From contig JAOZLK010000007.1 of assembly GCA_029934875.1 (NCBI GenBank), positions 1 to 21,739 on the forward strand: a stretch of 21,739 bases of DNA, read 5' to 3'. Origin of the DNA: Bacteroidales bacterium (lineage in GTDB: Bacteria; Bacteroidota; Bacteroidia; Bacteroidales; GCA-2748055). The notes below the pieces were generated by a model that saw only the letters and a list, made by a program, of their open reading frames with translations, had not been told where the DNA came from and made no database searches. A program made the translations under genes and the position numbers. Of the stretch, positions 1,486-15,997 are shown one piece after another. Every line of letters begins with the position of its first letter. The stretch's first letter is position 1.

Positions 1486-3597
1486 TTAGACCCTGACCCC
1501 GATCACAGAGATGTCGTCGATCTGCTCGTGATTACCTTTCCAGTCCACAAAGACCTTTTCGATGACCTGTCCCTGCTTCTCCATGGATTCCTTCTGAAGG
1601 GAAAGTAAAAGCTTTTTGAAATTAAGGCTCTTGAATTTCTTTCGGTTTTCGCCTCCGAACTGATCCACAAAACCATCAGAAAAGAGATAAAAGCTATCCT
1701 GCTCCTTCAGAAATATGGAATGGGAGGTAAACCTGCTTTCTTCCCAGTGTACACCAACCGGCTGTTTGTCAGCTTTTAGTTCAAAGAGCCGGTAGTCTTC
1801 GGCTTCGATAGACCGATAGGACGCAAGTTTGTCATCTACTTCCACCTCCTTATTACGAATTATATAGAGCGGGTTATTGGCGCCGGCATAATGTAGTTCC
1901 CTGGTGTTTTTGTTCAGGATCGCCAGGGCCATGTCCATGCCATCTTTCTGCTCATCGCTATCCCCTTCCTGAACCAGCATCTCTTTTACCTGCCGCCTGA
2001 GTTGCCCAAGGATTTCGGCGGGAGTATTAAAACAGCGATCACCGATCAGATCGTTGAGCATGGTGATGCCCAACATGCTCATAAATGCCCCGGGTACACC
2101 ATGGCCGGTGCAGTCGGCCCCAACAATAACCAGGTGATCCTTAACTTCCTTAACCCAGTAAAAGTCACCGCTTACAATATCCTTGGGCCTGAGAATTACA
2201 AAATGCTCCGGCATTAATTCATTCATCAATGCCGGCGAGGGCAAAATAGCAGACTGGATTCGCTGGGCATAGCTGATGCTATCGGTGATTAATTCATTCT
2301 GGGCATTCATCTTATCCCTGGTCGCCCTGATAAACTTCATTCTTTGATTGAGCCCGATAGCCATAGCCAGGAGCAATAATCCGAATAGTCCGGTGGAGAT
2401 AATAAGAGCTCGTTGCCTACGGCTCTGCAGATTGTCAATTTCTGACTGCTGTTCCAGGATTGCAATTTCGTCCTGTTTTTTCTCCATCTGGTAGGAAAAG
2501 ATAAGATTGTTAGCCCTTTCCTCGGAATCGATCCTGTAGATGGTGTTATCAATGGTATTCTGCAAGGACAAATACCTGTATGCATTGGGGAAATCAGAAA
2601 TCTCAGCATAGTTAGAGGCAAGTCCTTCGTATATACCTGAAAGTTCATTATTTAAACCGATCTCTTTGGCTATGGTTTCTGCCTGTTTAAAATACTCAAG
2701 GGCCCTCCAGGGCTGGGTTTGACTCTCATATACACTGGCCATGCCAAGAAGGCTGCTCACCATCTCGCGCTGCGCATCCTCTTGTTTTGCAAGTTCAAAG
2801 CCATCCTGGTAGTACTGAACTGCCTGTGGATAATCTTCCTTTTGAGAATAAATATTACCGATGAAGGTAAGGGAAGTCGAAATATCAATATTACTGCTTA
2901 AATGGCTCAGGGATTCCTGAAAAAAGAAGAGTGCAGAATCATACTCTTCCTTTTCCATGTAGAGCTCTCCAAGGTTAATATTACTCACTCCAACCAGCGC
3001 CTGATATCCGATGGCCTCTGCAATTTCCATCGTCCGATAATAATAAGACCTGGCCTTATCAAGAGTTGCGGGCTGCTCCGAATAAACCAGCCCTATGGTA
3101 TTGAGCAGGGTTCCTATTCTGGTACTGTCACCCAATTCTTCTGCAACTTTCAATGCCCGGATGGAATATTCAATAGCTTCCACATTATTTCCCGTTGTAT
3201 AATAAGCCGATCCCAGATTACTTAACATATTGGCCATCATCAGATCGTCGCCCGACTGCTTATAGAGCTCTAATGCCAACTCCCATTTTTTGATGGCCTC
3301 TGTATAGTAACCCTGCATATAATATCCAAGCCCGACTGTCTTATAGGCCTGTGCCAGTCCACTACTGTATTTGAGTTTTTCTGCCAGACTTTCTGCCTCC
3401 AGACTGTAGGCTATTGCCTCATCCGGAGAGATCCTGTATAAAATATAAGCGATATCGTTGAGGGTATTCACCCTGGAAGTATCCTCCTTGAGCTGCTCCA
3501 GAACCTGCTTTAGGCTGTCAAGGCCAGGCTCCTGGGCCCTGGATATTCCTCCCGCCAGAAGGAAAAACAGACTAAGATATATTGGAAGACTTTTCAC
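1486..3597 (-). CDS. TPR-transmembrane-SpoIIE/PP2C-type serine phosphatase
   Basis: 703 residues. Order: signal peptide 1-22; about seven tetratricopeptide-like helical pairs, roughly 40-350, with typical 'A..Y..AL..A' spacing; a short coiled-coil stretch (about 370-396); one membrane segment around 397-415 (ALIISTGLFGLLLLAMAIG); a linker; then a SpoIIE/RsbU-type phosphatase domain from about 440 to the end. Metal-binding acidic residues expected for PP2C are visible: D478 (SGDFYW), D495 (ADCTGHG), D552/D555 (DGMDMAL), D641 (FSDGFVDQFGG) and D694/D695 (QIDDISV). The TPRs should lie outside the inner membrane and the phosphatase in the cytoplasm, so an outside protein-binding signal could control dephosphorylation of a Ser/Thr target, such as an anti-sigma-antagonist. 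No partner kinase or STAS gene is in the window. This architecture is common in Bacteroidota. A terminator separates it from the giant gene upstream. Confidence 0.88.
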   Translation of the reverse strand: MKSLPIYLSLFFLLAGGISRAQEPGLDSLKQVLEQLKEDTSRVNTLNDIAYILYRISPDEAIAYSLEAESLAEKLKYSSGLAQAYKTVGLGYYMQGYYTEAIKKWELALELYKQSGDDLMMANMLSNLGSAYYTTGNNVEAIEYSIRALKVAEELGDSTRIGTLLNTIGLVYSEQPATLDKARSYYYRTMEIAEAIGYQALVGVSNINLGELYMEKEEYDSALFFFQESLSHLSSNIDISTSLTFIGNIYSQKEDYPQAVQYYQDGFELAKQEDAQREMVSSLLGMASVYESQTQPWRALEYFKQAETIAKEIGLNNELSGIYEGLASNYAEISDFPNAYRYLSLQNTIDNTIYRIDSEERANNLIFSYQMEKKQDEIAILEQQSEIDNLQSRRQRALIISTGLFGLLLLAMAIGLNQRMKFIRATRDKMNAQNELITDSISYAQRIQSAILPSPALMNELMPEHFVILRPKDIVSGDFYWVKEVKDHLVIVGADCTGHGVPGAFMSMLGITMLNDLIGDRCFNTPAEILGQLRRQVKEMLVQEGDSDEQKDGMDMALAILNKNTRELHYAGANNPLYIIRNKEVEVDDKLASYRSIEAEDYRLFELKADKQPVGVHWEESRFTSHSIFLKEQDSFYLFSDGFVDQFGGENRKKFKSLNFKKLLLSLQKESMEKQGQVIEKVFVDWKGNHEQIDDISVIGVRV

Positions 3598-3651
3598 TGA
3601 TTAATGTTCTACCCATAGAAAACAACATTTCCCTATAATAGTTCTCCGGAT

Positions 3652-3687
3652 GACAAAGAAAAGAGGAACCATCATTGATTCCTCTTT
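3652..3687 (-). terminator. Rho-independent terminator after the giant surface-protein gene
   Basis: AAAGAGGAA (3660-3668) and TTCCTCTTT (3679-3687) make a perfect 9-bp stem with a 10-base loop. Read on the minus strand the 3' arm runs into TTCCTCTTTTCTTTG, a T-rich tail. It lies about 40 bp after the stop of the 1965-residue gene and before the phosphatase gene, so it should end the giant transcript. Confidence 0.65.
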
Positions 3688-3726
3688 CCCAATTCACCCA
3701 AACAACATAACAATTATCTTAAATAT

Positions 3727-6700
3727 TTAATCCTTAATAAGCCGTACAACCCTGGCTGTATCTTCCATCACAATCCTGACAAGGTATTGCCCTGAAGGCA
3801 TGTGAGTCATATCGATCTCCAGGTGGTCGGCCCTTTTCTGGATGGATGTTAGCGGATAAGATTTGCCTGCCAGGTCATAGATGCTGATCATCTTGTATTC
3901 CTCAATACCCTGCATCCTGATGCTTACCCAGTCAACCACCGGGTTGGGATAGGCCACAACCTGGTCCTGGTCAGGCACCTCCTCCTCTTCAATATCTGTT
4001 TCGACCTGGGCAGCCTTGTGATTGCCCTTACACTTGGTGGATCTTGAATTGGCATTGGCCGCATTGCGAACTTTCTGGTCGCCGTCCCTGCTGTCAACAA
4101 TCCATGATAGCTCAGAGCCATCGAAGAATACAACAAATGATCCTCCACCCGGAGCAAACATGCTTGGAATTGCATCAGAAGCGGCCCAGTCGATACCACT
4201 TCCCAAAAGTAAGTTGTCATCGCCAAGAGGAACATAGACAGCCACATCGTTCTCATTCTTATACTCAAAATTGGCAACATAGTAATCTGTATCCATCTCC
4301 ATGATGCAGTTTAATACAGGCTTCACGGCACGTGTTCCAGGACCATAAGGATTTACATGCAGAGTGCCCGTTTCTGATGTAAAGATGTAGTTGCTATTGG
4401 ACGGCATCGGAGTCACGGTGTAGCTGCCTGCAGATTCAGATGACGTAAGGTCATAGGGAACATTATCCGTGTTCCTTAGAACGGTGTATCCATCATTCCC
4501 ACTATCACCTGGAATCCATCCAAGATAGTTGAAGGCAAAGACCGGCAGTGCATCTCCCTCCTTAATGTAAAGGAATGGATCCAGTGGAGAAACTGAAACC
4601 TCTCTTGGTGTAATATCAGCCAGGTCACGGGCACTGGAATTGGTCATATAGTTGCCTGCATCGGGTCCCGAAGATGAAACTTCGGCACTTACCTCGATTT
4701 CAGTGTCAACATCACTGCTAGCGAAAAGTCCCCCGCTTGATGAGACTGTTACAATATCTCCTTCCACCAGTCCACCTGCCACAAAGGCCGATGTGATAGC
4801 TTCTGTATTCCCATCATAGGTCTTATCCGCAGCACTGATTCCGACTACAAGATCCCTTTGAGTAATGCTTGCTGTGTCTGTAGCACTTACATTTGCCGAA
4901 TAGTTACCAGATTTGCTACCACCAACAAAGAGACCCAGTACGCTTACCTTTTTGCCTTCCCCCACCTGCTTATCTGCAAACAAGGCACTGGTGTAAGACA
5001 GGCTCAGGGTATCCTCTGGAAGAGAGTTGTCAGTAAGTTCAACATTTGCGATCCTGGTACCATCATACACTTTGTCCCAGGCACTCACTTCTATAAGCAG
5101 CTGTACCTGTGCAATGGTCAGTACGGCCGAATCATACTGCACGGCATAATTGTCTCCTGCACTCAGGCTTCCCTGGCGAATGGCATATTCCCCGGCATCC
5201 TCACCCTCATCGCGGATTAATGCCCCGGTAAGAGTATCACCGGAAAATAATCCTGTCTGTCTGTAGGTCAGTTCCGGATCCTCTTCGCCATAGGTCTTTG
5301 CCTTATCGTCAGCAGTAATGTTAAGTACGGCCGGATCGATGGTCAGTGTTCCCAGGCCATAACTAATTTCGTAATTATTGGAAATGTAGGTCCCTGGAAC
5401 AATCCAGTGCTTTCCGGCTGTTGTTCCAGTGATAAAGCTCATGGGAGTGAAGCTTACATCTTCTGCAGGAGCGCCCACATCGGTGGCATCAAAGACCATA
5501 ATGGTACCCTGATTGCTGCTGCTATTTACAGAGCTTCCATTTACAATCGCACCTTCATTGGAAAGAGGAGCCTCGTTTACAACAGCTATTCCCCTTACAT
5601 AGGCCAGTCCGTTGACAACTGCAATTCCATTTGCGATGGATACCTCTTCATAAATAAGGGAACTATCAGGCTGAATGGTTCCGGCAGCTATCTTCAGGGC
5701 ATTGGCATCAATTCCATCAAGCTCATTCACAACTGCAATACCCCTGAGGTTGGGAACCCCGCCATTGGCGATGGCAATACCACTTGCAAGGAAATTCATA
5801 TTCTCCAGGTTCACCACTTCATCACCGGTTCCTGCTTCATTGACAAGCGCTATACCATTTACAACGGCCAGGCCCCGGGTTAACTGGGTGCCATTGACCA
5901 TGGCAACTCCATTAACCATGGCAACTCCCCGGCGAATAAGTGCATTGATTATAACTCCATCCTCTTTCACCTGGCTTACCTCTCCTTCAAGCACCTCAAT
6001 TTCCAGGTTGTTAACTACGGCTATACCCCTGATCATTGGAATTCCGTTCACAACAGCAATTCCACGTACAGAAGGGAGTCCGTTTTCGATGGCGACATCA
6101 ACCCCGTTTACAACAGCTACTCCTCTTGAGATAAATGAGCTGTTTACAATTGCTACGCCTCGTATCACAGGTATTCCGTTTAGCTCAGCAATGCCGGTTG
6201 CAGGAACGGATGCTCCATCAATGGTGGTAATTCCATTCTCAATCACAACTTCATGTCCGTTCACAAGAGCAACTCCCCTGCTGAATCCGGCTCCATTGAC
6301 CATGGCCACCCCGCTTGTGGCGCGCACCTTGTTAACAAGTGCAACACCATTGAGCTCGGTCATATAACCATCATCAAAGGTGACCTGATCGCCATTTACT
6401 ACAGCAATACCGCGAACAATCTGGGTCATGTTCACAAAGGGTAAACCGTTTACCACGGCTATTCCCCTCATTAATCTGGCCCCATTGGCAAGAGGCTCAC
6501 CTGCCACATAAACAGTGGTGTCGCTCCCCTCTACCTCAACTTTCACTTCTACACCATTTACCACGGCCACGCCCCTGATCAATCTGACACCATTGACCAC
6601 CGCAACTCCCCTGATCAGGGGAATTCCATTTACCACGGCCACACCCCGAATCAATGAAATTTTATTGCTAAGAGCTGAAGTATGCTCATATTCCACATCA

Positions 6701-9624
6701 CTCAGAACGAGGCCAATGTCGGCAATATCCACAGTGCTGTCGCCTATTTCGTATAAGAAGTTAATACCTTCAGGTGGCAACTCCTCACCATAAGCAATGT
6801 CCACATCCATGGGTGTGATCACCAGTGGCAGTTTTTCAATGCTAAGGTTGCCATTTACAAATTCAAGAATATACTTTTCGGAAATGGCATTATCAATTTC
6901 TGTCAGGGGATTCTCCATATCCAGTGCAGGGTTCACTGAAGGTACAATAATGTATGCTCCCGCATCTGATGTATCACTGGCCGGTACAGAATACTGAAGG
7001 CCCGACAAACGGTCCGCCTCTTCCTGCAATACATTGCCATTAAGCACTGCGTCATCAAGACCCAGCGTATCTCCCTCCGGGGTGATAACTTTAATGTCGG
7101 CCGAATATTCGGGCATTACCTCGCCATACTTTTTGGCAACATTTGTAGCGCTTATGATAATATTTTGCCTTACAGGATCAGATAAGTAGATTACTTCTGA
7201 AACTCCTCCATCCAGTTCACTGGGCGAAATGTCATTTGTTGAAGCCTGCCATTCAGGAAATCCGATAAAGCCAGGATGCTCAACTGTAATGGTGTTTTCA
7301 TCCTCAATTACAACACCTTCTTCCAGGGGCTCACCCCGGAACAAAATCTGGGTCGAATCGGTAAAGAAGTCTCCTGTAACCGTAAAAGAGAATGGTCTGA
7401 TGGTATCACCGGGAGTAGCACTTTCTGAAGAAAGAATGAGATTTTCTATGTAGGGGGCAGGATTCGCAAAGGTCATCAGGGCCTTATGGGCCTGGACAAA
7501 TCCGGCTCCTGAAACAAGGTCTTCACCAGGTTCGTCCATATCCAGGGCAGTACTTTTCATCAAGGAGCGAATATCTTCAGGATCAAGCGGATTATCAGGA
7601 TCATACTTAAGTTTCCCTTCGATAAGCAAGGCCGCCATGCCTGCAGCATGAGGTGATGCTGCCGAGGTTCCAAAGAAATTAGGGTACAAAGTATCAGGAT
7701 CTACTGTGCTCACCCAGTCACCGCTTCCTAAATCGATGGTTGTATTCACTCCGTTTGGGGCAGTAATATCGGGTTTGGCCCTGACAAGCCCATCAACCGG
7801 TGTGCCCCCCCTCGAAGAGAAGGACATGATTACGGGCATTTCATATTCACCCGGACTATAGATGGGGTTCTTATCATAACGAACAGCACCCACCGAGATG
7901 GCCTTTTCAGCATTGGGGTGACCCACAATTGTAGATTTTCCCTGGTCACCGTATTCGATCATTTGGAATTGTGCCCCCCCTCTGAACAGGATATATTTAA
8001 ATTTTACAGCCACATCCGGTCCTGCAGCCCTGGCAATTACCACATTGGCATACACGCTGTCTCCTGACACAGCAAAAGGAACCACCTCAATGGGGAAGCC
8101 CCCGATATTTTCCCGGTTGAAGCCCAGGAGGGAAAATCCCACATCGTCGGACAGAAACAGGTCAAGATCGGTCTGGGTCGTAGTCATATCAGGATCCGAA
8201 CCATCGTCCCACTGAAGAACAAGGGTATAGGAACCTTCGGCTAACAAAACTGACTGGAAAGCATCACCAAGACCATTAAAATCATGTACCTCACCTGTGA
8301 TGGACAAGGGAGCTGTAGTTCCAACAAAGTCTGCTGCATATGAATAATCTCCAAAGTTTCCGGCTGAGGAGAAAAAAGTAATCCCCTCGTTAACAACCGA
8401 ATCAATGGTTTTAGAGATGATCCCATCGCGGAAAAACGGTTCTGTAATGTAGGATATATCGTCGACAATTACATCGCACAGAGCATCGGAAAGCTCCCTG
8501 ATACCAAGTGCCATATCCTGCTCACCCAGGAAGCCGGTTCTGAATGCCAGTTCTGCCCCTGGAGCCACATCATGAATGATTTGCAACATGGCTCTCCCTT
8601 CATCAGACAGGGTGCCGGACGTGGGCACAATATCTTTAAGTACATCTACTTCCAGTGTATCGCCGTTGGGATTTCCAATACCGGGAAGATCACCATTTCC
8701 AACATCAATATGGGCTGTCATCTGCGTATTATAGCTATTGGACAGCACACCAATTTTTACTCCAGAGCCATCGATATCATATCCCAACCGGGCAAAGTCG
8801 GAGTGCATTGCAAAATCACCCTGGCTTTTAGTAAGCCCGGTGGCCGGAACGATGTAATTACCAACTCCGGGATACACAGGTCTTGCATAAAAAAGGGCAT
8901 CAAAACCATTCAGTTGGAGAAGGACAGCAATATCAATCGATCCGGTGGCCTGGTTCAATGAGGTGTTTTGAGTGAGTAAAACAAATCCCACTGCATCAAG
9001 GCTGGCCAACATGTCTCCATACTGACCACTGAAAGCAACTACCTCGATGAGAACTCTGTCGCCTTCCAGCTGAAAAATATCATCGGTAGCTCCTGCGAAT
9101 CCAGAAGGATCAGCACTATAGACATTGTACAGGGAAGTAAGTTCTGCCCCAATCTTAGAATTATTCAGTTTCCCTCCTTCTGGAGGAAGGTAACCCGGAA
9201 TGATATCCAGGCTCGCAGGTACATCCTGGCAGTGATTTGAATTAATATCGGCATCTACCACTTTAACCTGCCCACTCGGAAGGGTAACGATCCACTGCAC
9301 ACGGTCTTTTGCATCAAACTCCTGGCTAAAGGCCTTTTCCTTAACACCAGGTTCAAAGGTATAGAGACCATACTTTTTGGATTGTCCATGGTTATAAATA
9401 AGCACGCTGCCTGTTTCATCCACCACAACTGTTTTCTTGCCGGTATTCTGATATCCAAAATGGGCCTTAATTTTTCCATCACCGATATACTCGGTGCAGC
9501 TGACAACAATATTAATATTATCCTTTTTTGGTCCTTTCTGAGCAATCAGGCTCGTAGGTATCAGAAGTAAAAAGGTAATGGAAAAAATGGCAAGGAACTG
9601 TGATCTATTGGCAAGGTTTTTCAT
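3727..9624 (-). CDS. Giant T9SS-secreted subtilase-like protein with MBG/YDG modules and RGVAVVNG repeats
   Basis: ATG at 9624 is preferred to the in-frame TTG at 9639 because it gives a normal signal peptide (MKNLANRSQF..SLIAQ, 1-29); length 1965 residues. Modules: Cys-bracketed beta-domain 38-132 (C43, C132); linker; S8-like subtilase about 280-715 with GTSAASPHAAG (S654) and SSAGN (N423), interrupted by a PPC-like beta insert (about 440-560); IPT/TIG-like domain about 719-815; MBG about 817-931; a second MBG split into 932-992 and 1364-1433 by the RGVAVVNG array (993-1363); MBG 1434-1506; YDG 1507-1589 and 1590-1673; MBG 1674-1758; a second Cys-bracketed domain (C1773, C1865); and a C-terminal sorting domain from about 1888 (AYPNPVVDW, YDLAGK, MPSGQYLVRI). 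The tail predicts export by the type IX system and surface attachment or release. The canonical subtilisin Asp and His motifs are not seen, so protease activity is doubtful. An adhesin or surface scaffold role is inferred. Confidence 0.9.
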   Translation of the reverse strand: MKNLANRSQFLAIFSITFLLLIPTSLIAQKGPKKDNINIVVSCTEYIGDGKIKAHFGYQNTGKKTVVVDETGSVLIYNHGQSKKYGLYTFEPGVKEKAFSQEFDAKDRVQWIVTLPSGQVKVVDADINSNHCQDVPASLDIIPGYLPPEGGKLNNSKIGAELTSLYNVYSADPSGFAGATDDIFQLEGDRVLIEVVAFSGQYGDMLASLDAVGFVLLTQNTSLNQATGSIDIAVLLQLNGFDALFYARPVYPGVGNYIVPATGLTKSQGDFAMHSDFARLGYDIDGSGVKIGVLSNSYNTQMTAHIDVGNGDLPGIGNPNGDTLEVDVLKDIVPTSGTLSDEGRAMLQIIHDVAPGAELAFRTGFLGEQDMALGIRELSDALCDVIVDDISYITEPFFRDGIISKTIDSVVNEGITFFSSAGNFGDYSYAADFVGTTAPLSITGEVHDFNGLGDAFQSVLLAEGSYTLVLQWDDGSDPDMTTTQTDLDLFLSDDVGFSLLGFNRENIGGFPIEVVPFAVSGDSVYANVVIARAAGPDVAVKFKYILFRGGAQFQMIEYGDQGKSTIVGHPNAEKAISVGAVRYDKNPIYSPGEYEMPVIMSFSSRGGTPVDGLVRAKPDITAPNGVNTTIDLGSGDWVSTVDPDTLYPNFFGTSAASPHAAGMAALLIEGKLKYDPDNPLDPEDIRSLMKSTALDMDEPGEDLVSGAGFVQAHKALMTFANPAPYIENLILSSESATPGDTIRPFSFTVTGDFFTDSTQILFRGEPLEEGVVIEDENTITVEHPGFIGFPEWQASTNDISPSELDGGVSEVIYLSDPVRQNIIISATNVAKKYGEVMPEYSADIKVITPEGDTLGLDDAVLNGNVLQEEADRLSGLQYSVPASDTSDAGAYIIVPSVNPALDMENPLTEIDNAISEKYILEFVNGNLSIEKLPLVITPMDVDIAYGEELPPEGINFLYEIGDSTVDIADIGLVLSDVEYEHTSALSNKISLIRGVAVVNGIPLIRGVAVVNGVRLIRGVAVVNGVEVKVEVEGSDTTVYVAGEPLANGARLMRGIAVVNGLPFVNMTQIVRGIAVVNGDQVTFDDGYMTELNGVALVNKVRATSGVAMVNGAGFSRGVALVNGHEVVIENGITTIDGASVPATGIAELNGIPVIRGVAIVNSSFISRGVAVVNGVDVAIENGLPSVRGIAVVNGIPMIRGIAVVNNLEIEVLEGEVSQVKEDGVIINALIRRGVAMVNGVAMVNGTQLTRGLAVVNGIALVNEAGTGDEVVNLENMNFLASGIAIANGGVPNLRGIAVVNELDGIDANALKIAAGTIQPDSSLIYEEVSIANGIAVVNGLAYVRGIAVVNEAPLSNEGAIVNGSSVNSSSNQGTIMVFDATDVGAPAEDVSFTPMSFITGTTAGKHWIVPGTYISNNYEISYGLGTLTIDPAVLNITADDKAKTYGEEDPELTYRQTGLFSGDTLTGALIRDEGEDAGEYAIRQGSLSAGDNYAVQYDSAVLTIAQVQLLIEVSAWDKVYDGTRIANVELTDNSLPEDTLSLSYTSALFADKQVGEGKKVSVLGLFVGGSKSGNYSANVSATDTASITQRDLVVGISAADKTYDGNTEAITSAFVAGGLVEGDIVTVSSSGGLFASSDVDTEIEVSAEVSSSGPDAGNYMTNSSARDLADITPREVSVSPLDPFLYIKEGDALPVFAFNYLGWIPGDSGNDGYTVLRNTDNVPYDLTSSESAGSYTVTPMPSNSNYIFTSETGTLHVNPYGPGTRAVKPVLNCIMEMDTDYYVANFEYKNENDVAVYVPLGDDNLLLGSGIDWAASDAIPSMFAPGGGSFVVFFDGSELSWIVDSRDGDQKVRNAANANSRSTKCKGNHKAAQVETDIEEEEVPDQDQVVAYPNPVVDWVSIRMQGIEEYKMISIYDLAGKSYPLTSIQKRADHLEIDMTHMPSGQYLVRIVMEDTARVVRLIKD
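5536..6648 (-). repeat. Coding tandem repeat: about 22 copies of a 12-residue RGVAVVNG unit
   Basis: Residues 993-1363 of the giant protein. The core is xG[VIL]A[VIM]VNG; 14 copies start with RG, the others with NG, SG or TG. The tightest stretch is three consecutive 12-residue units (for example IPLIRGVAVVNG then VRLIRGVAVVNG). Elsewhere units are separated by longer beta-like inserts such as VDVAIENGLPSV and HEVVIENGITTIDGAS. At DNA level some copies share long identical runs (the GTGGCCGTGGTAAATGG core in the first and third), while others differ at many third positions. The array is therefore partly homogenised and partly old. Strand-turn periodicity suggests a beta-solenoid or stacked hairpins; this is inference. 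Confidence 0.9.
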
Positions 9625-9754
9625 GGCGCTAAGGGTCAAATAAAAATTATCGTAAAGGGTTCTAAATGACGGGGTTAAAATTTGATTTAAGTAACTAGGC
9701 TAACACTACATTTATATTTATGTTCCTCCAAAAACATGGGTTTAACAACTTTTT

Positions 9755-11707: not shown

Positions 11708-11743
11708 ACTTAACAGAATTAAACTGATGTGAAAGAAAAGGAT

Positions 11744-14700
11744 ATGATGGAGAAATTTCAGTTCGGATTTGATATTGGTAGTATTTCGATCAATTCGGTA
11801 ATTATGGATTCCGGTGGCAAGATCATTGCCGATCGCTACGATTACAACCATGGGAAGCCCTTCGATAAACTAAAGGAGATACTTGAGGAGCTGGAAAAAG
11901 AGTATTCAAAAGATCAATTTGCTCACCTCAGTTTTACCGGAACAGGCGGTAAACTGGCCGCCAAGTTGTTAAACGGCTCCTTTGTGAACGAAATTGTGGC
12001 CCAGTCCACATCGGTTTCCAGACTTTATCCCCAGGTAAGAACTGTCATTGAAATGGGTGGTGAAGATTCCAAATTGATCTTCATGGATAAGCTGAGTGAA
12101 AATTCTTCCCGGCTTTCGGATTTCGAACTGAATACCCTGTGTGCCGCCGGAACCGGATCCTTCCTTGACCAACAGGCTAACCGCATTGGCGTCTCCATTG
12201 AAAATGAGTTTGGTGAGCTTTCTCTTATGTCGAAAGACCCACCGCGAATTGCAGGCCGATGCAGTGTTTTCGCTAAAAGTGATATGATTCACCTGCAGCA
12301 AATTGCCACACCCGTTCATGATATTGTGGCCGGATTATGTTTTGCCGTGGCGCGCAATTTCATTTCTTCATTAGGCAGGGGCAAAACCATTGCCTTTCCA
12401 GTGATCTTCCAGGGAGGGGTCTCATCCAATATTGGAATGGTCAGGGCTTTCAAAGAGTTGCTTAAGGCTAAGGATGGCGACCTGGTGATTCCCGATCACA
12501 ACACGTCCATGGGCGCCATGGGTGCCGTACTCAATAGTCTCGCAGAAGGGGAAAGGGAAGAAATTGAATACCAGGGAACTGGCGAGCTTGAAAAATACAT
12601 CCATGGTGAGAAATCCAGGGGAAAATCATTCGCACCCCTCTCGCCGCCCAAATCGGAAATTAAAAAAGAGGTTTTTCCATTACCCGAATCAGATGAACCC
12701 TATGAGGTCTACCTGGGACTCGACATTGGCTCCCTGAGCACAAATGTGGTTTTAATCGATGACCAGAATCGTGTGGTGGCCCGCCGTTATTTGCCCACTG
12801 CAAGCAAGCCCCTGGAGGCCATTCGCCGGGGCATGTCCGAGATCCAAGAGGAGATGGGAGACCGGGTTGTGGTTAAAGGCGCCGGTACCACTGGATCGGG
12901 CCGCTACCTGACCGGAGATTTCATCGGGGCAGATTTGATCCGTAACGAAATTACTGCCCAGGCCACAGCCGCCATCGCTTTTGATCCCAAGGTGGATACC
13001 ATTTTTGAGATTGGTGGACAGGATTCCAAGTACATTAGCATTGATAATGGCGTGGTCGTCGATTTTGAGATGAACAAAGTATGTGCTGCCGGAACAGGTT
13101 CTTTCCTGGAGGAGCAGGCAGAGAAACTGAACATCAATATCATTGAGGAATTTGGTGAAATGGCCCTTGGTGCCTGTCAGCCGGCCGGACTGGGAGACCG
13201 TTGTACCGTGTTTATGGAGTCGGACCTGAATGCCTTTCAGCAAAAAGGAGTTGAAAAAGATAACCTGGTGGGGGGACTTGCCTACTCCATCGTACATAAC
13301 TACATCCAGAAGGTAGTAAGGAAAAAACGAGTGGGTGAACACATCCTCTTTCAGGGTGGAGTAACCAACAACAAGGCCGTAGTAGCAGCCTTCGAAAAAG
13401 TTACTGGTAAAAAAATTCATATTCCGCCCCATTTTGATGTGACGGGAGCCATCGGGGCAGCCATGCTGGCACGGGACCACATTAAAAAGGAAAAACTGCA
13501 AACAAGGTTCAAGGGCTTTGATATCAGCAAAATTCCTTACACGGTGGACAAGTTCACCTGCAAGGCTTGCTCTAACCAGTGCGAAATCAGGCGAATCAAA
13601 ATTGAAGGCGAGAAAAAACCTCTCTACTTCGGGGGCAGGTGCGAGAAGTGGGAAATGGATGAACGTAAGGGCAAGGGCAAGGGAATCCCAAACTACTTTG
13701 AGGAGCGTCTCGGGATGCTGACCGATGGTTTCGAACCGGGTAAGGAAGAGGGGAAACAAACCATCGGAATCCCCCGCGGATTGATGGTCTTCTACCAGCA
13801 GTTCCCTTACTGGAGTACTTTCTTTAAAGAGCTTGGATTCAATGTGGTGGTTTCGGACGAGACCGACAATCAAACTGTAAAGAAGGCCCTAAACATGATT
13901 GTGGCCGAAACCTGTTTCCCTGTGGAGGTCATGCATGGACATATCTACGAGATGCTGGAGGACAAGGTGGATTATATCTTTACTCCCTTTATCATCAATT
14001 CCAAAGCCAGCAAGGACAATCCCACCTCCAATACAAACTGTCCCTGGGTACAGACCGTTCCCTTTATGGTCAAAGCCTCCATAAAAGAAGAGCAGCGGGA
14101 GAAGTTGCTGAGTCCCGCTCTCAATTTCCGCTACTACGGGAAGGTGGTGGAAAAAGAACTCTATGACTATTTTGGCCAAAGGTTCAAGCTAAGCAAAAAA
14201 CAGATCGTTGCAGCCATGCAAAAGGCTGATGCCAAGCAGGATGTGTTCGAAGAGCGTGTGAAAGCCAGGGGCCGCGAGGTCATGGCAGGTCTGCCCGAAG
14301 ACCAAGAGGTCCTGGCCATAATAGGACGTCCCTACAACACAGGAGACCCAGCACTCAATCTGAGCATGGTTGATAAACTGATCAATCTGGATGTGCTCCC
14401 CATCCCCATGGACTACCTGCCCCTGGAAGAGGAGCATATCACCGACGATTATAACAAGATGTACTGGCCCAACGGTCAGCGCATCCTGGCAGCTGCCAGG
14501 ATCATTGCCCGTGACGACCGCCTGCATGGCATCTACATGGGTAACTTCCGCTGCGGTCCCGACTCCTTCCTGGCCCACTTTGTCCACGAAGAGATGGCAG
14601 GGAAGCCCTATATGGAAATTGAGATCGATGAGCACGGCGCCGATGCAGGAATGATCACCCGTTATGAGGCCTTTCTTGATAGCCTGAGGGGCTCCAGAAT

Positions 14701-15997
14701 AAGTGACAACAGGAAGAAGAAGGTCTTTGTTCCCGGAGCGATGGCCTCCTCACCAATGACCGACCGGACCCTCTATTTCCCTTACCTGAGCGATGCATCC
14801 TATGTGATGGCTTCAGTTTGCAGAAGCTTTGGAATCAATGCCGAATCACTTCCCATGCAAACCCAGGAGGATCTGGACCTGGCCCGTAAATATACCTCGG
14901 CACGTGAGTGTTTCCCCATGATTGCCACCACGGGAAGTTTCCTGAAAAAACTGATGTCACCTGATGTGGATCCGGCCAAAGTCAGCTTCTTTATGCCCGA
15001 CCACAATGGTCCCTGCCGCTTTGGTCAGTACAATCGTTTCCAACGGGTACTGTTCGACCGCCTGGGCTATGATAAGACCGAAATCATTGCTCCCAGCAAT
15101 GACGACTCCTATGAGTCCATCTCCGGGGGACACGGTTCCAAATTCAGGCTCAATGCCTGGAAGGGTTTTGTAGCCATGGATATGCTCCGCAAGATGAAAC
15201 AGGAAAGGAGCCCATATGAGTTGGTACCCGGCACTACCGAACAGGTGTACCAACAGGCGCTGAAGGACCTGGTAAACTGTATGGAGAATGGTGGTGATAA
15301 TTTAACCGATACGCTGGCCGGAATCGCATATGCATTTACCCAGATTCCACTATCTAACGGTAAGCGCAAGCCTGTGATTGCCGTGGTAGGTGAGATCTTT
15401 ATGCGTGACAATGATTTCTGCAGTGCCCACCTTGTACAGAGACTGGAGAAATTTGGAGCCGAAACCTGGATCGCTCCCTTTGCAGAGTGGCTGTCCTACT
15501 CCACCATTCGCTATACACGTGACAGTAAATGGAAGGGTGACTTCAAGGGAGTCGTCAAATCCAAGTTGCAGGAGTACTTCCAGGAACGAACCGCCAGCAA
15601 GATTATCAAGCCCTTCCACGGATTGTTTGATGAGGACAAAGAAGTAGCTGTCAAAGATATGCTGAATGCCTGCGGGCCATATGTGCATCGCCATTACGAT
15701 GGCGACCCTGCTCTAAACCTGGGTACCTCAGCCATCCTGGCGGACAGGGGAATCTCGGGCATCGCTAATATCCTGCCCTTCACCTGTATGCCTGGAACCC
15801 TGGTAGCATCGGTATCGGACCAGTTGCGAAAAGACAAGGGAAATATACCCTATGTGAGCATTGCCTACGACGGACAGGAGGATGTCTCTATTGATCTTCG
15901 GCTCCAGGCCTTCATGCACCAGGCAAGCCAGTATGCAGAAGATAAAGGACTCACTTCCCCCGACGTGAACAACTGGGTTCTCAACACTAAGGACTAA
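11744..15997 (+). CDS. Fused acyl-CoA dehydratase activase: two BadF/BcrA-type ATPase domains plus HgdB-like region
   Basis: Start chosen at ATG 11744 (an ATG also lies at 11747, and an in-frame GTG at 11729); AAAAGG sits just upstream. 1417 residues. ASKHA ATPase domain 1, about 6-270: FDIGSISINS (9-18), GGEDSK, CAAGTGSF with C133, GRCSVF with C173. Domain 2, about 322-580: LDIGSLSTN (326-334), IGGQDSK, CAAGTGSF with C447, DRCTVF with C487. Then a Cys cluster (C606, C609, C613, C633), a DUF2229-like region (about 672-780, IPRGLMVFYQQFPYW and AETCFPVEVMHGH) and a 2-hydroxyacyl-CoA-dehydratase-like region to the end, with further conserved-looking Cys (C937, C1056, C1226, C1348). HgdC-type activases use ATP to push one low-potential electron from a [4Fe-4S] cluster into a dehydratase or reductase. 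No dehydratase subunit, CoA-transferase or ferredoxin gene is adjacent. The physiological reaction of such long fusions is not known to me. Confidence 0.88.
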   Translation: MMEKFQFGFDIGSISINSVIMDSGGKIIADRYDYNHGKPFDKLKEILEELEKEYSKDQFAHLSFTGTGGKLAAKLLNGSFVNEIVAQSTSVSRLYPQVRTVIEMGGEDSKLIFMDKLSENSSRLSDFELNTLCAAGTGSFLDQQANRIGVSIENEFGELSLMSKDPPRIAGRCSVFAKSDMIHLQQIATPVHDIVAGLCFAVARNFISSLGRGKTIAFPVIFQGGVSSNIGMVRAFKELLKAKDGDLVIPDHNTSMGAMGAVLNSLAEGEREEIEYQGTGELEKYIHGEKSRGKSFAPLSPPKSEIKKEVFPLPESDEPYEVYLGLDIGSLSTNVVLIDDQNRVVARRYLPTASKPLEAIRRGMSEIQEEMGDRVVVKGAGTTGSGRYLTGDFIGADLIRNEITAQATAAIAFDPKVDTIFEIGGQDSKYISIDNGVVVDFEMNKVCAAGTGSFLEEQAEKLNINIIEEFGEMALGACQPAGLGDRCTVFMESDLNAFQQKGVEKDNLVGGLAYSIVHNYIQKVVRKKRVGEHILFQGGVTNNKAVVAAFEKVTGKKIHIPPHFDVTGAIGAAMLARDHIKKEKLQTRFKGFDISKIPYTVDKFTCKACSNQCEIRRIKIEGEKKPLYFGGRCEKWEMDERKGKGKGIPNYFEERLGMLTDGFEPGKEEGKQTIGIPRGLMVFYQQFPYWSTFFKELGFNVVVSDETDNQTVKKALNMIVAETCFPVEVMHGHIYEMLEDKVDYIFTPFIINSKASKDNPTSNTNCPWVQTVPFMVKASIKEEQREKLLSPALNFRYYGKVVEKELYDYFGQRFKLSKKQIVAAMQKADAKQDVFEERVKARGREVMAGLPEDQEVLAIIGRPYNTGDPALNLSMVDKLINLDVLPIPMDYLPLEEEHITDDYNKMYWPNGQRILAAARIIARDDRLHGIYMGNFRCGPDSFLAHFVHEEMAGKPYMEIEIDEHGADAGMITRYEAFLDSLRGSRISDNRKKKVFVPGAMASSPMTDRTLYFPYLSDASYVMASVCRSFGINAESLPMQTQEDLDLARKYTSARECFPMIATTGSFLKKLMSPDVDPAKVSFFMPDHNGPCRFGQYNRFQRVLFDRLGYDKTEIIAPSNDDSYESISGGHGSKFRLNAWKGFVAMDMLRKMKQERSPYELVPGTTEQVYQQALKDLVNCMENGGDNLTDTLAGIAYAFTQIPLSNGKRKPVIAVVGEIFMRDNDFCSAHLVQRLEKFGAETWIAPFAEWLSYSTIRYTRDSKWKGDFKGVVKSKLQEYFQERTASKIIKPFHGLFDEDKEVAVKDMLNACGPYVHRHYDGDPALNLGTSAILADRGISGIANILPFTCMPGTLVASVSDQLRKDKGNIPYVSIAYDGQEDVSIDLRLQAFMHQASQYAEDKGLTSPDVNNWVLNTKD

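Follow-up and report, generated by a model that had tools for sequence, protein, structure and literature searches.

Introduction

The grooves of tetratricopeptide repeat (TPR) domains bind short peptides, among them those of TPR receptors of the RRNPP kind such as Rap, PlcR and AimR. One such peptide is the hexapeptide AimP, whose binding by its receptor AimR is described in part of a published account (PMC6458997). Long surface proteins offer a second point of comparison, in that a section of the paper creating the MBG_2 and YDG Pfam families lists MBG_2 as a stalk repeat of CdrA (PMC8201768). Finally, a survey of protein repeats states that confident inference of mechanisms beyond recent duplication is limited to a handful of proteins whose repeats are highly homogenised and vary little in number (PMC5120217). 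Here we analyze a 21,739-nucleotide stretch of DNA (hereafter the window; positions 1 to 21,739 of the forward strand of contig JAOZLK010000007.1, GenBank assembly GCA_029934875.1) from a Bacteroidales bacterium of lineage GCA-2748055. The window contains a gene for an exported S8-like protein in which a hexapeptide, termed here the word, is repeated throughout an array, followed by a gene for a membrane-anchored TPR protein, termed here the sensor. The spacing of the words is conserved while the word itself is private to each lineage, and divergent paralogues within a genome share words to an extent that paralogues from different genomes do not. Among open-licence papers we found no description of the array or of the array-sensor gene pair.

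Results

The array is a spaced set of hexapeptide words

A sequence-only reading of the array gene (Table 1) had proposed a secreted giant protein with about 22 copies of a 12-residue unit. The repeat array is real and lies where that reading placed it, although on the minus strand, and the 1970-residue protein does carry a type IX secretion system (T9SS) sorting tail. A loose pattern finds 21 units, 14 of which begin with R; the stricter pattern of the earlier reading matches 15 times within residues 1001-1420, whereas 2000 shuffles of the residues give 0.008 matches on average and never more than 1. The length of the unit has to be revised. Autocorrelation of the array is 0.184 at lag 6 and 0.191 at lag 12, indicating a base period of six residues, so that the 12-mer RGVAVV-NGIPLI represents two hexamers and what repeats is in fact a hexapeptide word.

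Rather than a simple tandem array, the words and their conserved spacers form a domain. Word spacing was measured in 40 sequences over two intervals, from the domain start to PFV and from PFV to GYMT. The latter interval is 24 residues in every one of the 24 sequences that have both anchors, and the former is 128 residues in 27 of the 40. Insertions and deletions of more than four residues most often measure 6 or 12 residues, followed by 11. Array genes carry from 5 to over 30 copies of their word.

The word changes from lineage to lineage. Within the genus of the window it is RGVAVV (the window itself), RGIALV, NGIALV, NGFGMV or DGIPMV; elsewhere we find NGIPLV, NGRAIV, NARALV, NATALV, SGKAIV, SLRGIV, NGLSVI, NGKRSV, NPRVIT, SGRVVT and NQKGLV, as well as longer words, namely the 7-mers NRLRAVV and NGSRGIA and the 8-mer NGKSIVIS. 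Three words (NGIPLV, NARALV and NGRAIV) recur in separate lineages. Across 26 genes the mean unit identity is 0.710 within genes relative to 0.443 between them, and shuffling the units among these genes yields 0.467 (standard deviation 0.006, maximum 0.485), with none of 500 shuffles reaching the observed value. Word positions 3 and 5 are the most private (0.60 and 0.82 within genes, 0.18 and 0.41 between, in 23 genes), with positions 4 and 6 being more widely shared in the same 23 genes. A strictly species-level word is ruled out, as G466, G683 and G684 each hold more than one.

Divergent paralogues of one genome tend to share their words

An S8 tree of 27 genes shows a supported split (99/97) into two types, X and Y. 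Word sharing across this split was analyzed in the eight genomes, among those retrieved, that hold both X and Y array genes, using 40,320 permutations of the pairing. Besides genomes without both types, this analysis left out G461 (a near-copy of G460), G467 (near-identical copies and a fragment), G472 (one copy without words) and G639 (the same record as G463). X and Y words from a single genome have a similarity of 0.601, relative to 0.030 for those from different genomes; of the 40,320 pairings only the true one reaches this value. Identity of the S8 region, used as a control, exhibits no such effect (0.566 in the same genome and 0.559 otherwise; 6606 of 40,320 permutations reach it). Individual genomes differ in this regard. 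Words of X and Y are identical in G727, where their codon match is near-random (0.38 vs 0.33); in G463 the codon match is slightly raised (0.44 vs 0.35); and in G683 there is no word sharing between X and Y. G460 has two genes that are 53-55% identical outside the words and that both use NGRAIV. The Arg codon of this word is AGA in 8 of 9 units of one gene and CGT or CGC in 9 of 9 units of the other, and only 2 of 71 between-genome pairs of similar divergence are as alike in words.

We also compared words with the number of array genes (putative emitters) and of sensors in a genome, keeping in mind that the counts are small and that many genomes are incomplete. Where several emitters and one sensor are seen, the words match or nearly match in G460, G463, G727, G724, G726 (NPRVVT twice, and NGRVVT) and G491, the last with 59 of 71 word columns matching relative to 95 of 183 other columns and with a second copy that stops close to the edge of its contig. 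The match is partial for one copy of G684 and absent for the other, which is cut by the contig end. Two genomes with two emitters, each with its own sensor, use two words, these being NGRALV and NARALA in G466 and NPRVIT and SGRVVT in G683. In G472 the L087/L089 paralogue carries five NRLRAVVN copies with a sensor downstream.

Words are kept alike mainly at the protein level

Synonymous codons and amino acids were compared separately among the units of each gene. In the window gene the codon match between units is 0.298, relative to a gene-wide expectation of 0.297. The proportion of synonymous differences (pS) between non-adjacent units is 0.59-0.87 in 22 of 26 genes (it is lower in L030, L032, L037 and L042), and the ratio of nonsynonymous to synonymous differences (pN/pS) is 0.06-0.45 in 24 of 26, the exceptions being L032 (1.11) and L042 (0.65). 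The synonymous codons are thus largely scrambled while the amino acids remain alike, which indicates that word uniformity is held mainly at the protein level. For example, NGLSVI is identical in 13 of 13 units of its gene with a pS of 0.77, and NRLRAVVN is identical at 5 sites with scrambled codons. Word uniformity comes mostly from something other than recent DNA copying.

Closely related genes give a view of shorter time spans. In two near-identical pairs, L030/L031 from two genomes and L037/L038 from two contigs of one metagenome-assembled genome, the codon match is 0.85 and 0.93 for orthologous units, 0.76 and 0.90 for spacers, and 0.61 and 0.55 for paralogous units; more distant pairs show little difference. 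Among 903 long-form pairs, those with flanks more than 70% identical have orthologous units that are alike at 0.83-0.89 relative to 0.68 within a gene, and those with flanks less than 40% identical show 0.46 relative to 0.56 within a gene. These comparisons indicate that units are inherited by position over the short term and shift together over the long term. Directly tandem words are also more alike than expected (0.804 relative to 0.733 when shuffled, 0 of 1000 reaching it), an effect that is confined to directly tandem units and is not seen between neighbours across spacers. L025 and L029 are among the genes with a raised codon match between adjacent units. The extra likeness of tandem neighbours indicates that slippage plays a part.

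A TPR sensor gene recurs beside the array gene

Gene clustering of 20 loci (set 1) returned one recurrent partner, a TPR protein found at 16 of them. As a rule this protein starts like a signal peptide, contains a single membrane segment and carries a cytoplasmic output; the one in the window (Table 1) has such a start, TPR repeats, a membrane segment at about residues 398-416 and a SpoIIE phosphatase output at residues 487-703. Output domains were scanned in the window, L112, L095-L099, L101-L103 and L106, with L100, L105, L107, L109 and L110 left out of the scan. The window and L112 have a SpoIIE output, L103 has a histidine kinase, and L095-L099, L101, L102 and L106 have an adenylate/guanylate cyclase. 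The sensor gene is directly downstream on the same strand at 13 of the 20 loci (the window, L095, L096, L097, L099, L100, L101, L102, L105, L106, L107, L109 and L112), upstream in L098 and L110, and represented in L103 by a distant relative about 4 kilobases (kb) upstream. Set 2 consists of 16 further regions from the class sample, of which L132 and L133 are the same record as L095, leaving 14 non-duplicates. Here the sensor gene is directly downstream in 6 of 14 (L131, L134, L136, L137, L141 and L144) and upstream in L135, with L138 and L140 being cut. Four further loci (L043, L088, L089 and L090) also have a sensor downstream. In a scan of positions 3400-3900 of the window, the gap between the two genes revealed no promoter- or terminator-like site on the minus strand.

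When a TPR-cyclase sensor was used as query against nine other genomes, the best match was the neighbour of the array gene in eight of them and lay two open reading frames away in G178. With the TPR-SpoIIE sensor of the window as query against six other genomes, the same held in five, the exception being G010, where the match next to the array gene is a fragment at a contig end and is outscored by other SpoIIE proteins. Each genome has between 3 and 27 stretches that match TPR-cyclase or TPR-SpoIIE proteins, many of them the output domain only, and repeated chance adjacency is thus judged unlikely.

Distribution of the family in Bacteroidota

A protein search returned 45 relatives, 33 of which span the whole query region at 52-80% identity, and scanning genomes for the conserved motif that follows the array returned 21 loci, all in Bacteroidota and including Bacteroidales, Flavobacteriales, Chitinophagaceae, Sphingobacteriales and Lentimicrobiaceae. 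With the window's own genome counted in each, 5 of 395 genomes of a spread phylum sample match at 1e-8, and 12 of 295 genomes of the class sample hold the S8 family. Viral contigs gave no match. The array domain occurs in two sizes, a short form of about 245 residues and a long form of 500 residues.

Several relatives depart from this plan. A 2287-residue protein of the same genus (L053, G013:C118) has an array region about twice as long, with apparently two array domains that both use DGIPMV and whose spacers have diverged. In a same-genus genome (L109 / G003:C30, and L011) the array is collapsed to 5 units in a 187-residue domain; in-frame stops interrupt the S8 part of its array gene, and the neighbouring sensor gene also contains one, so that this array-sensor pair may be decaying together unless the stops are assembly errors. 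In contrast, the sensor gene of G005 contains an in-frame stop although the array next to it is full. Finally, L146 (G250:C1) is an S8 relative without a word array, with four units spaced 183 residues apart (NAGPDQTVC...) and no TPR neighbour in the region taken. Lacking both array and sensor, it is a single natural control.

The array domain is modelled with short beta strands, and no characterised family was found to cover it

The sequence-only reading had suggested beta strands with N-G turns, forming either a solenoid with a ladder of invariant Asn residues or a stack of hairpins, and had proposed a structure prediction. It had also suggested an ice- or mineral-binding face or an amyloid-like polymer; nothing we observed points to any of these, no analysis having been aimed at them. 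AlphaFold2 gives an uncertain beta-rich model of the window domain (43 rows; mean predicted local distance difference test score, pLDDT, of 52; predicted template modelling score, pTM, of 0.37). Strands are predicted for about 170 residues (Table 1), with several short strands parted by two-residue NG or DG turns; at this confidence the model favors neither a solenoid nor a hairpin stack. The first word block and stretches past about residue 1230 are mostly below a pLDDT of 50, and a model of the short form has a pLDDT of 39. The Asn itself is not invariant. In the same-genus genome G013 it is replaced by Asp through most of the array (VDG 35, VNG 6), and it is replaced by Ser in the words of L041 and L045. 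Such near-complete changes are a misfit with a buried Asn ladder.

The earlier reading knew of no enzyme family with this repeat, and profile and sequence searches found no characterised family covering the array. Foldseek against the PDB and viral models, as well as VIA-align, gave nothing usable (top PDB rows at E 0.002 and weaker), and PDB sequence searches returned mainly the S8 and T9SS-tail regions, chance-looking matches or nothing. Hexapep and YdcK profiles do not match the window domain at E up to 5; with the YdcK beta-solenoid repeat, whose cut-off is 30 bits, the SGKAIV dialect (L041) reaches 29.6 and E. coli YdcK itself 38.5. Two further profiles score on VNG-type repeats. Cyanophage Pam3_gp18 (PF22479) reaches 25.0 bits on the window domain (cut-off 24.2) with no stretch passing alone, and in L028 it reaches 80.5 bits from 7 partial stretches beside 70.7 bits for LED_rpt (PF20854), both over their cut-offs. 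PF22479 is also precomputed on 6 of the 45 homologues (P0004, P0008, P0014, P0015, P0033 and P0036). These scores are sums of short partial stretches and were judged to be probably a low-complexity likeness to VNG repeats. A search with LED_rpt gave one sub-threshold match in 31 genomes, and among open-licence papers we found none on it. PHROGs gave partial, repeat-driven matches for L028 and L025 (best 3e-13) and none for the window domain.

Architecture of the array protein and its surroundings

The array protein combines a Peptidase_S8 domain, a split MBG_2-type domain holding the word array, MBG_2/YDG repeats and the T9SS sorting tail (Pfam, NCBIfam). It scores as T9SS type A cargo with both TIGR04183 (31.9 bits, cut-off 23) and PF18962 (34, cut-off 27). 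The array is preceded by the ITP..YG half of the MBG-type domain and followed by the GTTAGKHWIVPGT..SNN..ISYGLGTLTI half. Alone, the first half has no Pfam match in the window; in relatives L024 and L025 MBG_2 falls on it at 23.0 and 22.7 bits (cut-off 25). The second half alone aligns to MBG_2 profile positions 42-72 at 22 bits against the same cut-off, and the whole protein passes that cut-off with four stretches.

The best stretch of PF00082 in this protein corresponds to profile positions 145-288, and the Ser motif GTSAASPHA is intact. Where the long form could be read at this motif, its conserved active-site-like motifs are SNS, in place of the SDS of P0042-P0045, and DEGRAM (window S8 region 7501-8800). 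The position of DEGRAM is presumably that of the His of canonical S8 proteases. The S8-like domain of the long form is possibly sedolisin-like or an inactive protease. Two other features of the surroundings were observed. A 230-residue antisense open frame crosses the array at 5675-6367 (plus strand), and relative L085 also has a long antisense frame; these are probably a by-product of repeated codons. A gene resembling BadF/BcrAD-DUF2229 CoA-enzyme activases (11729-15997, plus strand) recurs near the array gene in L100, L108 and L109, which is probably local synteny of the genus.

Table 1. Coordinates of the array gene, its parts and the neighbouring sensor gene in the window.
Feature	Position	Strand	Extent or description	Basis
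Array gene	3727..9639	minus	1970-aa exported S8-like protein	Open reading frame and translation, Pfam, NCBIfam
Peptidase S8 match	7501..8043	minus	residues 533-713	PF00082, 60.3 bits, cut-off 21.8
First half of MBG-type domain holding the array	6658..6837	minus	residues 935-994	Conserved ITP..YG columns, alignments
Word array	5575..6648	minus	residues 998-1355	21 hexapeptide-word units, RGVAVV/RGIAVV, conserved spacers
Modelled beta-strand stretch	6088..6588	minus	about residues 1018-1184	AlphaFold2, 13 of 17 ten-residue blocks at pLDDT 70-89
Second half of split MBG-type domain	5332..5433	minus	residues 1403-1436	Invariant columns; MBG_2 sub-threshold
Next MBG_2 domain	5116..5325	minus	residues 1439-1508	Pfam PF18676, best stretch
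YDG domain	4888..5094	minus	residues 1516-1584	Pfam PF18657, best stretch
Type IX secretion sorting tail	3751..3951	minus	residues 1897-1963	PF18962 and TIGR04183
Gap between array gene and sensor gene	3598..3726	minus	129 bases	
Sensor gene, downstream partner	1486..3597	minus	703 aa	Pfam TPR_12, SpoIIE; hydropathy

Discussion

Words that are uniform per genome, free to differ between lineages and maintained mainly at the protein level form the pattern that a shared reader would impose. We therefore favor, with a confidence that stops somewhat short of even, the reading that the words are repeated recognition sites for a partner common to the word proteins of a genome, most likely the neighbouring TPR sensor. 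The sensor is the obvious reader because TPR grooves bind short peptides. The exported S8-like protein would display the array of recognition words, and the reader, a protein with a signal peptide and one membrane helix, would have its TPR domain presumably in the periplasm and its cyclase or SpoIIE output in the cytoplasm. The TPR groove would be filled, and the output altered, either by the intact S8-like protein in periplasmic transit or by short pieces released from it. All copies of the word would have to fit one partner and would thus stay identical to each other, and the choice of word would drift from lineage to lineage together with that partner. Binding of the word by the TPR domain, signalling by this binding and the site of both are what we infer. 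A bolder form of this reading, which we consider doubtful, is that Bacteroidota have a self-recognition system in which the genome encodes a TPR membrane sensor, equipped with a cyclase or PP2C output, that reads a lineage-private repeated word. Several emitters would then share one word owing to one shared sensor, a second sensor would allow a second word, and words would act like exchangeable addresses or pherotypes.

A number of observations weigh against recognition by a shared partner. One concerns topology, in that T9SS cargo is expected outside the outer membrane and the TPR domain is expected in the periplasm. The gene pair is also not universal. In set 1 no sensor is nearby in L094, L104 (these two being near-identical orthologues) and L111, with L108 cut by a contig end; in set 2 there is none in 5 of 14 (L139, L142, L143, L145 and L146), although L143 has an 88-residue fragment at a contig edge 5 kb on and L145 has 0.7 kb of contig left downstream. 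A further family set (set 3) is divided, with the sensor downstream in 4 of 10, none in 5 of 10 and 1 of 10 cut. Conversely, the diverged G472 copy L086/L043 has no repeated word, yet a TPR sensor gene is downstream of it. Same-genome likeness is also not restricted to the words, as it is also found, to a weaker degree, in the non-repeated remainder of the array domain (0.228 relative to 0.149; 14 of 40,320 permutations) with the largest same-genome values in G724 and G723. In the same two genomes the X/Y codon match of the words is raised (0.67 vs 0.37 in G723; 0.53 vs 0.32 in G724), indicating that DNA exchange between X and Y may operate there, and such exchange between paralogues may explain part of the same-genome word effect. 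Within genes, the codon match between non-adjacent units is above the gene-wide expectation in 20 of 21 genes, most strongly in L042, L032, L038, L029 and L030, which indicates that older DNA copying has left a trace. Finally, within-gene likeness beats orthologous likeness in only 306 of the 903 long-form pairs, and over the short term each unit is conserved in its own position, an outcome equally expected from a purely structural constraint.

The strongest rival is a self-stacking structure. Words might pack on each other as a beta-solenoid or a stack of beta-hairpins, so that all must match; X and Y of one genome would share words through co-assembly, and the TPR protein would respond to the assembly, or its link with the array would be a functional one only. 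Agreeing with this are the modelled short strands with NG/DG turns at about residues 1018-1184, the placement of the most private positions, 3 and 5, on what would be one strand face, the near-threshold score of the SGKAIV dialect against the YdcK repeat (29.6 bits, cut-off 30), and the predominance of 6 and 12, followed by 11, among indels of more than four residues. We nevertheless consider such self-stacking unlikely as the explanation. Ordinary repeat expansion, in which slippage and gene conversion copy hexamers within and between paralogues and uniformity is a by-product, draws on the likeness of tandem neighbours (0.804 vs 0.733), on the raised codon match of adjacent units in L025 and L029 and of non-adjacent units in 20 of 21 genes, and on the codons that G723 and G724 paralogues share above expectation. 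Against it stand the high synonymous and low amino-acid difference between units (NGLSVI in 13 of 13 units at a pS of 0.77, NRLRAVVN with scrambled codons), the conserved spacing of the words and near-identical pairs that lack recent homogenisation, and we regard it as improbable.

A different proposal is that the array is a multi-copy signal precursor from which the S8-like domain or another protease frees short peptides that exit the cell and then re-enter the periplasm to act on the TPR sensor, making the word a lineage-specific autoinducer. Many copies of one private short word, often beside a TPR receptor gene, are what such a precursor would look like, and the AimP bound by AimR is likewise a hexapeptide (PMC6458997). 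However, no obvious processing site was noticed between abutting words, no systematic search for one having been made, the S8 active site looks non-canonical in the long form (SNS, DEGRAM), and the conserved spacers would be needless for a mere precursor. We regard the precursor proposal as improbable.

The use of one word throughout a genome's copies, in long-split genes and with different codons, points to recognition co-evolving with a partner. If the TPR sensor is that partner, these loci would constitute a peptide-word signalling or sorting system in Bacteroidota that comes with natural word/sensor pairs. If the words instead match by stacking, they would provide a natural experiment in how beta-repeat proteins stay uniform. 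The family looks like one of the cases described in the repeat survey, where mechanisms beyond recent duplication can be inferred (PMC5120217). Taken together, private words, genome-wide sharing and an adjacent membrane sensor suggest an unknown recognition system.

Known systems each share some of these features. The array protein carries both domains of MBG_2/YDG stalk (Periscope-type surface) proteins (PF18676/PF18657), but its MBG-type domain is split by the word array, and it is the word that varies rather than the domain copy number. The left-handed beta-helices of YdcK and hexapeptide proteins (PF18836, PF00132) likewise repeat every six residues and have V, G and A in similar places; they differ in that the window array is unmatched by their profiles and in that the words here are private and uniform, with Pro, Gln or Arg occupying the small-residue position in some of them. 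Multi-copy precursors such as yeast alpha-factor and neuropeptide precursors also contain many identical short words kept alike by function, whereas the array is bacterial, has conserved spacers and showed no processing sites in our unsystematic inspection. Peptide-TPR signalling of the RRNPP kind has in common with this locus a short word, an adjacent TPR gene (in the window and most set 1 loci) and a word that is private to the lineage. In contrast to RRNPP receptors, the TPR protein described here is membrane-anchored with a cyclase or phosphatase output, and its presumed word is repeated many times within a giant exported protein.

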